Assembly (NCBI RefSeq): GCF_900188275.1
Contig: NZ_FZNY01000001.1
Span: 1,178,001-1,242,000 of the forward strand
DNA: 64,000 nucleotides
Reading direction: 5' to 3'
Source: Dokdonia pacifica
GTDB taxonomy: Bacteria; Bacteroidota; Bacteroidia; Flavobacteriales; Flavobacteriaceae
The position numbers and the translations under genes were made by a program. Shown in pieces: positions 35,036 through 38,281 of the stretch (position 1 is its first letter; the number at the start of each line of letters is the position of its first letter). The notes beneath the pieces are model-generated. The model was not told the origin of the DNA, made no database searches, and was given only the letters and a program-made list of their open reading frames with translations.

Positions 35036-35896
35036 ATGGCAAATCTTAAGGAAATTAGAAACAGAATTGGTTCCGTATCTTCAACGATGCAGATTACCAG
35101 TGCCATGAAAATGGTATCTGCTGCAAAATTGAAGAAAGCGCAAGACGCTATTACAGCAATGCGTCCATATGCAGATAAGCTTACTGAGCTATTGCAGAAC
35201 CTAAGTTCTGGACTAGACAGTGATTCTGGAAGTAATTATGCAGAAAACCGCGAGGTGAATAAAGTGCTTATTATCGCTATTTCATCTAATCGTGGTCTTG
35301 CAGGAGCTTTCAATTCTAACATCATCAAAGAAGCAAAACGACTAGCAGAAGAAACCTATGCTAATCAAGAAGTTAGTTTTGTGACTATAGGTAAAAAGGC
35401 AAATGATATTATTGGAAAATCACAAAACGTGATTACAAACAATAATGAAATATTTGACGACTTAACTTTTGATAATGTAGCTGTTATTGCAGAAGACTTA
35501 ATGGAGCGTTTTGCGACAGGTGAATTTGATAAAATCGAAATCATCTACAATAAGTTTAAAAATGCAGCAACTCAAATAGTAACGACAGAACAATTCCTTC
35601 CAATACTTCCAGTAGAACAAGGAACTACTTCTAATGTTGATTATATATTTGAGCCATCTAAGCAACAAATTGTAGAAGGATTAATTCCTAAAGCTTTAAA
35701 AACGCAATTGTTTAAAGGAATACGCGACTCTGTAGCGAGTGAGCATGGAGCACGTATGACAGCAATGCATAAAGCAACAGATAATGCAACAGAGCTTAGA
35801 GATGCACTTAAATTGCAGTATAACAAAGCACGTCAAGCGGCTATTACCAATGAAATCTTAGAGATTGTTGGTGGAGCAGAAGCATTAAACAATTAA
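35036..35896 (+). CDS. atpG: ATP synthase F1 subunit gamma
   Basis: A 286-residue rotor subunit. The N-terminal NLKEIRNRIGSVSSTMQITSAM and the C-terminal RQAAITNEILEIVGGAEAL form the two long helices of the central stalk. The Rossmann-like middle has ISSNRGLAGAFN. The beta and epsilon genes (atpD, atpC) do not follow; in Flavobacteriia they are commonly at another locus. A terminator follows at 35929. Confidence 0.96.
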   Translation: MANLKEIRNRIGSVSSTMQITSAMKMVSAAKLKKAQDAITAMRPYADKLTELLQNLSSGLDSDSGSNYAENREVNKVLIIAISSNRGLAGAFNSNIIKEAKRLAEETYANQEVSFVTIGKKANDIIGKSQNVITNNNEIFDDLTFDNVAVIAEDLMERFATGEFDKIEIIYNKFKNAATQIVTTEQFLPILPVEQGTTSNVDYIFEPSKQQIVEGLIPKALKTQLFKGIRDSVASEHGARMTAMHKATDNATELRDALKLQYNKARQAAITNEILEIVGGAEALNN

Positions 35897-35899
35897 TTC

Positions 35900-35922
35900 A
35901 TTCCCACGAAGGTGGGAATCTC
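35900..35922 (+). repeat. REP-like element B, copy 1
   Basis: TTCCCAC gaa GGTGGGAA hairpin followed by TCTCG, immediately after atpG. The same stem-plus-TCTC pattern recurs at 36150-36171 and, degenerate, at 36624-36643. Confidence 0.65.
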
Positions 35923-35928
35923 GATATA

Positions 35929-35964
35929 AAAATCCCGATCTTTTTTAAGATCGGGATTTTTTTG
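35929..35964 (+). terminator. Intrinsic terminator of the atp operon
   Basis: A 14-bp stem (35929-35942 with 35947-35960) containing ATCCCGATCTT, a 4-nt T loop, and a run of seven T from 35957. A strong, near-symmetric structure. Confidence 0.9.
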
Positions 35965-36027
35965 TTATGCCTTATTTTTAAAGGGCTTATCTAACTTTTA
36001 CAAGCCAATTACGATGTTTAATTTCGG

Positions 36028-36171
36028 AAACGATTATCGGGACTCACTGGTTTTGTGAAGGTTGCACATACATTTACAACACTTTCTTCACAAATATTTT
36101 GGTTTGAGTTATAAGCCTCGAGATGTAACATTCCTCGAGGCTTATCTTTTTTCCGTAAAGACGGAAATCTC
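36028..36171 (+). repeat. 144-bp direct repeat, copy 1
   Basis: Aligned without gaps to 36500-36643, with about 120 of 144 positions equal by hand count. It starts AAACGATTATCGGG. The second half is nearly identical and includes the terminator-like hairpin. The 5' half is diverged. Confidence 0.9.
36083..36152 (+). ncRNA. Candidate small RNA, copy 1
   Basis: The block CACTTTCTTCACAAATATTT and onwards is identical between the two copies up to the hairpin. It begins about 5 bp after TACATTTA (36069-36076), a plausible -7 box present in both copies. It ends in a 12-bp stem (36111-36122 with 36134-36145) and CTTTTTT. This looks like a self-contained transcript of about 70 nt. The RNA family is unknown to me; the flavobacterial Flavo-1 motif should be compared. 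Confidence 0.4.
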
Positions 36172-36426
36172 ACTACGGTATAGCAAAGACTTCTTCTTGT
36201 CCTTAAGCTATCCTAAAGATAAACTCTGACTGTAATCTTACATTCATATTACTTGCCTTTTTAGATATAGTAACATTTTTTCATAAGTGACGTTAGGTTT
36301 TCCCTATCAAATGCATGTTTAGACACTATAGAGTGGTTTTCTTCTTTTTTATAACAAAACCCCAAGATTGATAGTTTAAAGCGTTCATAGGGCCTTAAAA
36401 TGAATAAGAATGATACCATGTTTTTC

Positions 36427-36442
36427 CGCTTTCGCGAAAGCG
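36427..36442. repeat. Palindrome copy 11 (intergenic)
   Basis: Perfect 16-bp palindrome CGCTTTCGCGAAAGCG between the two 144-bp elements. Confidence 0.95.
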
Positions 36443-36499
36443 TATACCATAGCATTGCATTTTTTAAAATTATAACAGCATTTAAATACAAATTTTAGT

Positions 36500-36643
36500 A
36501 AACGATTATCGGGTTTGACTGATATCCTGAAACTTATAGATACATTTATATCACTTTCTTCACAAATATTTTGGTTTGAGTTATAAGCCCCGAGATGTAA
36601 CATTCCTTGGGGCTTATCTTTTTCTTATGAAGACGGGAGTCTC
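36500..36643 (+). repeat. 144-bp direct repeat, copy 2
   Basis: Second copy, 472 bp downstream of the first and in the same orientation. Differences cluster in the 5' half and the last 20 bp. In the hairpin, one U-A pair is replaced by C-G and one G-C by G-U, so pairing is kept. Confidence 0.9.
36555..36623 (+). ncRNA. Candidate small RNA, copy 2
   Basis: Same layout as copy 1: TACATTTA at 36541-36548, the identical 5' block, a stem formed by 36583-36594 and 36606-36617, and a CTTTTTC tail. The compensatory change in the stem argues for selection on RNA structure. Confidence 0.4.
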
Positions 36644-36802
36644 GTTCTGGTTTAGTTCAAATCTTTTAATCATATGACTAGAGTCACAATAAGAATGTAT
36701 CGTAATAATTTTATTACTAATATCTTGTTTATAGTTTTGTCATATATGCCATAGAGGCACCTATAAATTTGTTACTTTTAACAATAGATAATACTTCCTT
36801 TT

Positions 36803-38281
36803 TTGAGTACACTTAAAAACCTTTTTAAACACACATTTGTCTATGGTTTAGCTACTGTATTACCAAGAGTACTTACTGTATTGCTAACATGGTTACTTAC
36901 CAAATATTTAGATACTGAGAGTGATTTTGGAGAAGTGTCTATACTTTTTACTTATATCGTTTTACTTAATGTAGTACTTACATACGGTATGGAAACAGCC
37001 TTTTTTAGGTTTTACAATGGAGAATCTGCGACTGAGAAAACAATTAAAACATCACTTTGGACTCTTGTAGTAACGACATTAGTTTTTGCTATATCATCTA
37101 TTTTTTGGATAGAACCTGTAGCAAGGCTAAGCGATATAAATGTATCTTATTGGAGATGGGTTGTAGGGATTTTAAGTTTTGACACCCTAATGGTGATTCC
37201 GTTTGCATTAATGAGAGCAAAAAATCAGTCATTGAAATATGCGATTATTAAAATGATAAACGTGGTTATCTCAGTAGGAACATCAGCTGTTTTCTTAATC
37301 GCTACTCAAAAAATGACAAGCCTTTTTACATGGCTTCCTAATGATAAGAAAGAACTCTTTTTTATCTCTGGCTGTATGGCTAGTGCTCTTACATTACTTT
37401 TTGTAAGTAAACCATATATAAGTAAGTTTTATATAGATATTTCTTTGCTAAAAAGAATGTTGCGATACAGTTGGCCTATACTTATTGCGGGTCTTGCATT
37501 TGCAATAAATGAAGCCTTAGATAAAGTGTTACTTCAATGGTTATTGCCGCTTGACGAAAAAGCAGCAAAAGAGCAAGTTGGTATTTATACGGCGTGTTAT
37601 CGTTTAGCGATTGGGATGACCTTATATGCAACTGCATTTAGATTAGGAGTAGAACCCTTCTTCTTTAGTCAGTCTAAAGATAAAAATGCATCTCAGCAGT
37701 ATGCCATGATTACAAAAGCATTTGTCGTGCTAGGAGCCATAGGAATGTTTGTTTACATTGTTTTACTAGATGTTATCAAACCATTATTGATTGGAAAACC
37801 TAGTTATCTAGTAGGTATGAAAATTACACCTATTGTTGTGTTTGCCTTCTTCTTTTTTGGCATTTATCAAACGCTGTCTGTTTGGTATAAAGTAACAGAT
37901 AAGACAAGATATGGAGCCTATATTTCTATAACAGGAGCAGTATTAACGATTGTCTTAAATGTAGTATGTATTCCTACCATAGGATATATGGCAAGTGCAA
38001 TGGCTACCTGTGCAGCATATGGTTTAATGATGATTGTATCTTATAGTATGGGGAGAAAACATATGCCTATTCCTTATGATATAAAAAATATTGTTTTATA
38101 TATTATTTTGTCTGTTGGTTTTTCGTCTGTTTTCTTCTATCTTTTAAGAGATTATTTTGGAATAGGGAGTATACAACTTTATCTTGCAGGCATCCTTATG
38201 ACAGCTATTTTAGTAGGTGTTATTTGGTATAGAGAGCAACCTTTATTACAACAAATATTACGAAGAAAGAATGAAAGTTAA
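36803..38281 (+). CDS. Oligosaccharide flippase (Wzx/MATE-like)
   Basis: A 492-residue membrane protein with about fourteen spans. The start [21 protein letters not shown] is the typical first helix of polysaccharide exporters in this group. Such proteins flip lipid-linked repeat units across the inner membrane. The main polysaccharide locus is 26 kb upstream, so whether it serves that polymer is unknown. The start is TTG at 36803, chosen because it directly precedes the family-like N-terminus. It overlaps dut by 11 bp. Confidence 0.88.

Follow-up and report, generated by a model that had tools for sequence, protein, structure and literature searches.

Two copies of a 144-bp element lie between atpG and a polysaccharide flippase gene in the window, a stretch of 64,000 nucleotides of Dokdonia pacifica DNA. 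The element probably represents two tandem sibling genes for small RNAs (sRNAs) that would act in trans through their 5' domain, and each copy would have a regulated promoter of its own. Sequence evidence supports the gene well. From the same sequence we infer its transcription, with start and end points, and its mechanism, namely trans pairing and control by an activator.

Copy 1 (36028–36171) and copy 2 (36500–36643) are aligned without gaps at an offset of 472 bp, and 120 of the 144 positions are identical (83.3%), in agreement with a preliminary description of this DNA (two gapless copies 472 bp apart, about 83% identity). A repeat search widens the pair to 36022–36183 and 36494–36655 at 81% identity. 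According to the comparison by segments, 14/14 positions are identical in the upstream box, 15/27 in the promoter spacer and 10/12 in the −7 region; on the RNA side, the values are 30/30 for the 5' domain, 32/35 for the hairpin and 19/26 for the tail. The first half of the element had been described as drifted, which is correct except that its first 14 bases are identical in the two copies. The last 70 or so bases had been described as almost identical, and the predicted RNAs, with inferred ends at 36081–36151 (copy 1) and 36553–36623 (copy 2), indeed share 68 of 71 bases. The conserved block is strongly kept as described; its most conserved part, however, is the unpaired 30 nt at the 5' side and not the hairpin. 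All features of the two copies and their neighbours are on the forward strand. The upstream neighbour is atpG (ATP synthase gamma, 35036–35896; Pfam PF00231, E = 2.7e-99), and the downstream neighbour is the flippase gene (36803–38281; Pfam PF01943, E = 1.2e-12). Between atpG and copy 1, the terminator of the atp operon is located at 35928–35961 (15-bp perfect stem, 4-nt loop, T tail), which argues for a separate transcription unit of the element. One site of the palindrome CTTTCGCGAAAG is found between the two copies, near 36429–36440. This palindrome is highly iterated: the window has about 14 sites and 464 kb of the genome about 78 (each palindrome counted on both strands), against an expectation of roughly 0.03 for a 12-mer at even base composition.

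Fifteen copies were compared, 12 from nine Dokdonia genomes and three from a metagenome-assembled genome (MAG) contig, L060. In all of them, an upstream box of 16 bp with the sequence GGAAACRATKATCGGG, or one closely similar to it, is located at a fixed distance of 28 nt (from ATCGG) before the sequence TAYATTTA, which is likewise common to the 15 copies. In the window, the upstream box is GGAAACGATTATCGGG at 36026–36041 for copy 1, at about −55 to −40 relative to the inferred start, and GTAAACGATTATCGGG at 36498–36513 for copy 2. The small-RNA gene of the preliminary description should thus be extended by this box, which is nearly perfect in both copies. The sequence TACATTTA, pointed out earlier as a possible −7 box, is present at 36069–36076 and at 36541–36548, and it fits the Bacteroidota housekeeping box TAnnTTTG at −12 to −5 (PMC9723704). 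Based on this position, the inferred starts were placed at 36081 and 36553. A −33 element was not evident in the sRNA promoter. Its lack would fit an activator-dependent promoter, and the upstream box is the probable activator site. The sequence TATATTTA is also present upstream of most response-regulator orthologues in Dokdonia. Elsewhere in the genus, the 13-bp core of the upstream box is no commoner than its reversed control, and no other conserved promoters marked by the box were found. At the level of sequence, the marks of an independent gene are the −7 box and the upstream box in all copies, and a covarying terminator stem with a T tail.

The 5' single-stranded domain corresponds to 36081–36110 in copy 1 and 36553–36582 in copy 2. 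It is composed of two modules, CUUUCUUCACA (11 nt) and UAUUUUGGUUUGAGU (15 nt), joined by 1–2 variable bases. Except for this spacer and the first and last bases, the domain is invariant in the 15 copies, whereas the adjacent upstream spacer is identical at only 15/27 positions between copies 1 and 2. According to the predicted fold, the domain is largely unpaired or weakly paired, and would be accessible as a seed. The intrinsic terminators follow at 36111–36151 (stem 36111–36122/36134–36145) and 36583–36623 (stem 36583–36594/36606–36617). Each consists of a 12-bp stem, an 11-nt loop and a U tail, and the fold is strong, about −18 to −24 kcal/mol per RNA. The three bases by which the two hairpins differ are a double change from U-A to C-G and a change from G-C to G-U, from copy 1 to copy 2. 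Thus, the 12-bp stem, the preserved pairing and the RNA length of about 70 nt in the preliminary description all agree with the present analysis, in which the inferred length is 71 nt. Among the 12 pairs of the stem, seven are changed on both sides, and covarying cells number 18 in the alignment of 12 rows and 23 in that of 15 rows. Of the stem cells, 93% pair, and the covariation score is 0.413 against 0.205 ± 0.024 in shuffles; none of 500 shuffles reached the pairing or the score of the stem, and slid registers are also far below. The sequence of the hairpin is free to vary provided that pairing holds. Downstream of atpG and of several sRNA copies there are imperfect palindromes of the ATTCCCGCGnAGGCGGGAATCTC type (35896–35922 and 36150–36171 in the window), which account for some of the likeness between the 3' ends of the 144-bp units. 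Such palindromes are also observed downstream of both sRNA copies in the locus L055, and are seemingly local to the locus.

Homologues were detected by DNA search in 9 of the 18 Dokdonia genomes, with one to three tandem copies, and a search with a covariance model of 84 positions, as had been proposed earlier, returned the same nine. Two copies each are present in the genome studied here (G000), G013 and G015, and three in L060. Since the element recurs in half of the Dokdonia genomes and its stem covaries beyond every shuffle and slid register, it is more than a chance similarity. The model search of 397 Flavobacteriaceae genomes (our genome included) found no further carrier outside the Dokdonia nine, at stricter filters that a very divergent homologue could escape. 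The DNA search of 199 family genomes also gave no further carrier, and its two weak matches are not homologues. When 84,980 species genomes were scanned for the exact pattern, the only matches were Dokdonia records, one 'Cytophagaceae' MAG, which is the same-genus genome G005, and one 'Crocinitomix' MAG contig. The latter is L060, in which three sRNA copies are located at 2.0–2.8 kb on the minus strand. As the atpG of L060 has 90% DNA identity to a Dokdonia atpG, the Crocinitomix label is probably due to a binning error or a contig chimera; the atpA of L060 is more divergent. No viral contigs carrying the element were found. Three other candidate matches were rejected as homologues: L019 (G123) resembles the stem by chance, and L052 and L048 (E = 0.002 and 0.05) are without the conserved domain. 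In the tree, copy 1 of G000 clusters with copy 1 of G015, and likewise copy 2 with copy 2 (support 0.74/0.76). The pair would thus be older than the G000–G015 split, although this support is weak. G013 and the MAG contig have either their own duplications or homogenised copies.

A short, unpaired and conserved 5' end, a 3' terminator hairpin and the presence of siblings together form the layout of trans-pairing sRNAs. The earlier proposal of a duplicated small-RNA gene is supported by the 12 genus copies and three MAG copies, the covarying terminator and the invariant 5' domain. We propose the following mechanism. Each copy would be a complete transcription unit. An activator probably binds the upstream box, at a fixed distance from the housekeeping-type −7 box. 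Transcription would start about 5 nt downstream of the −7 box and run for about 71 nt to the intrinsic terminator, and the 3' hairpin would serve as both the terminator and the protective end of the RNA. The 5' domain most likely pairs in trans with mRNAs near their translation starts, and the two copies may provide dosage or separately tunable output.

Long reverse-complement sites of the RNA are not enriched (about 10 matches vs 9 with the reversed-pattern control), and 14-mer (module-B) sites are below the control (85 vs 102). Duplex energies with 357 start regions, taken from 464 kb or about 8% of our genome, equal those of dinucleotide-shuffled RNAs, and those with 105 signal-peptide genes are no better than shuffled RNAs; these tests have low power for 8–12 bp pairing and are compatible with it. 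The two best plausible target candidates, a response regulator (−18.5 kcal/mol in G000) and an MKKITLQL lipoprotein (−15.7 kcal/mol), were rejected since they are not conserved beyond close relatives, and an exact 14-nt site in G005 was rejected as it is inside a coding sequence. The neighbour genes show no consistent pairing with the RNA. L018 (G191, another genus) looked like a homologue but proved to be the 5' UTR and start of an MKKVLLS... gene on the other strand. For this reason, the idea that the RNA is antisense to ATGAAGAAA starts was tested, and it was rejected by the same site counts and energies. Genes for RRM-1 proteins (PF00076, RbpB type) are absent from all 18 Dokdonia genomes, and the Bacteroides control genome was positive. 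The lack of site enrichment, of a conserved target and of an RRM-1 protein counts against the sRNA reading, as does the half of the genus without a detectable copy.

The target tests leave room for another role of the 5' domain, in which it sequesters an RNA-binding protein as a decoy or scaffold like CsrB/RsmY and is not an antisense seed. The absence of target enrichment suits this role, several copies suit titration, and a protein site in two parts would be consistent with the rigid conservation of 26 or more nt around a tolerated 1–2 nt spacer. However, no short motif is repeated within one RNA, unlike CsrB/RsmY, there is no candidate protein, and RRM-1 proteins are absent. We regard this role as unlikely. 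As a still more tentative idea, an RNA-binding protein or an RNA partner might read the whole 5' domain as one site in two parts (11 nt and 15 nt with an elastic 1–2 nt joint). In these bacteria without RbpB-type RRM-1 chaperones, this would be a riboregulatory route of Flavobacteriaceae that differs from that of Bacteroides.

The element is located directly after atpG in eight of the nine carrier genomes, and the flippase gene is downstream in all nine; in G001, atpG and the element are about 5 kb apart, with other genes in between. Such a location, upstream of genes on the same strand, could be that of a cis-acting leader or attenuator, whose hairpin would conditionally stop transcription within the 5' leader of the gene that follows (flippase, lipoprotein or beta-barrel protein). 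In G001 and G016, the lipoprotein gene begins about 75 bases past the element. However, the gene between the element and the flippase gene varies: it encodes a lipoprotein-like product in G001, G016, G010, G009 and G005 and a beta-barrel protein in G015 and G013, and no gene is present there in G000, G017 and L060. In addition, G003, G004, G006 and G011 keep atpG, the lipoprotein gene and the flippase gene in the same order without the element. These results indicate that the element is not tied to one downstream gene. Each of the tandem copies has a full terminator at its end, and no conserved alternative antiterminator fold was seen. A leader function is therefore improbable. The gene between the sRNA and the flippase gene is swapped among species (L010, L054, L055, L056, L057, L058 and L059), and the two lipoproteins tested from this interval match no Pfam or NCBIfam family. 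On the other side of atpG, some Dokdonia genomes carry an insertion between atpA and atpG, a gene of about 111 aa (MGFxxSPIRxKSFxFACEIVHYCD...), as seen in L056, L058 (reverse complement where needed) and L068 (1113–1446). Its product is similar to the four-helix-bundle proteins that are often associated with 23S rRNA insertions.

A DNA element without RNA function, such as a duplicated promoter–terminator cassette or a mobile repeat, might be suggested by the tandem duplication and the copy number of one to three. It is very improbable, because the covariance model search found exactly two copies in the genome, both at this locus, and because the transcribed 5' part is best conserved and the stem covaries. 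A small-protein gene is hardly credible: short open frames cross the region at 36062–36229 (+) and 36385–36603 (−), but no reading frame is compatible with the 1-nt indels that G017, G005 and G010 have within the invariant block, a decayed protein gene having been dismissed in the preliminary description as well, and the hairpin arms change as pairs and not as codons.

The comparison with Flavo-1 and the other Rfam families, suggested earlier, gave no window match at the gathering threshold and, at the element, no credible match up to E = 10. Flavo-1 is excluded by this test; what the Flavo-1 RNA motif has in common with the element is its occurrence in Bacteroidota. A similar layout is that of the FopS/GibS sRNAs of Bacteroides (PMC11697453), of which FopS has been demonstrated experimentally; they are also multicopy Bacteroidota RNAs of 65–70 nt, with a conserved 5' seed region and intergenic members with their own sigma-A promoters. 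The FopS sRNAs block the translation starts of SusC mRNAs through the 5' seed and bind the RRM-1 protein RbpB. They occur in Bacteroidaceae as 12–15 mostly dispersed copies, whereas the Dokdonia RNA, likened here by description and not by sequence, is confined to Dokdonia in one to three tandem copies, with no RRM-1 match. OmrA/OmrB and PrrF1/PrrF2 (PMC4211561) are also tandem siblings, of about 70–110 nt, and in OmrA/B the first 21 and last 35 nt are nearly identical, so that the 5' end is conserved; they belong to another phylum and are tied to Hfq and known regulators, and no sequence relation is expected. Rfp18 of Flavobacterium psychrophilum is a genus-level Flavobacteriaceae sRNA, for which the paper names no Rfam family (PMC9723704). 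As compared by description, Rfp18 pairs through its third stem-loop, whereas in the Dokdonia RNA a single hairpin follows an unpaired 5' domain. In the literature searched, there was no paper on Dokdonia sRNAs. As judged from sequence comparisons, the element looks like a new sRNA family of the sibling type, restricted to Dokdonia as far as searched.

Dokdonia is a proteorhodopsin model genus, and the sRNAs of marine Flavobacteriaceae are almost uncharted. A compact tandem sRNA gene at a fixed locus, together with congeners free of the element, would be a clean system for the study of sibling sRNAs. It would also allow one to ask what replaces RRM-1/RbpB in Flavobacteriaceae.
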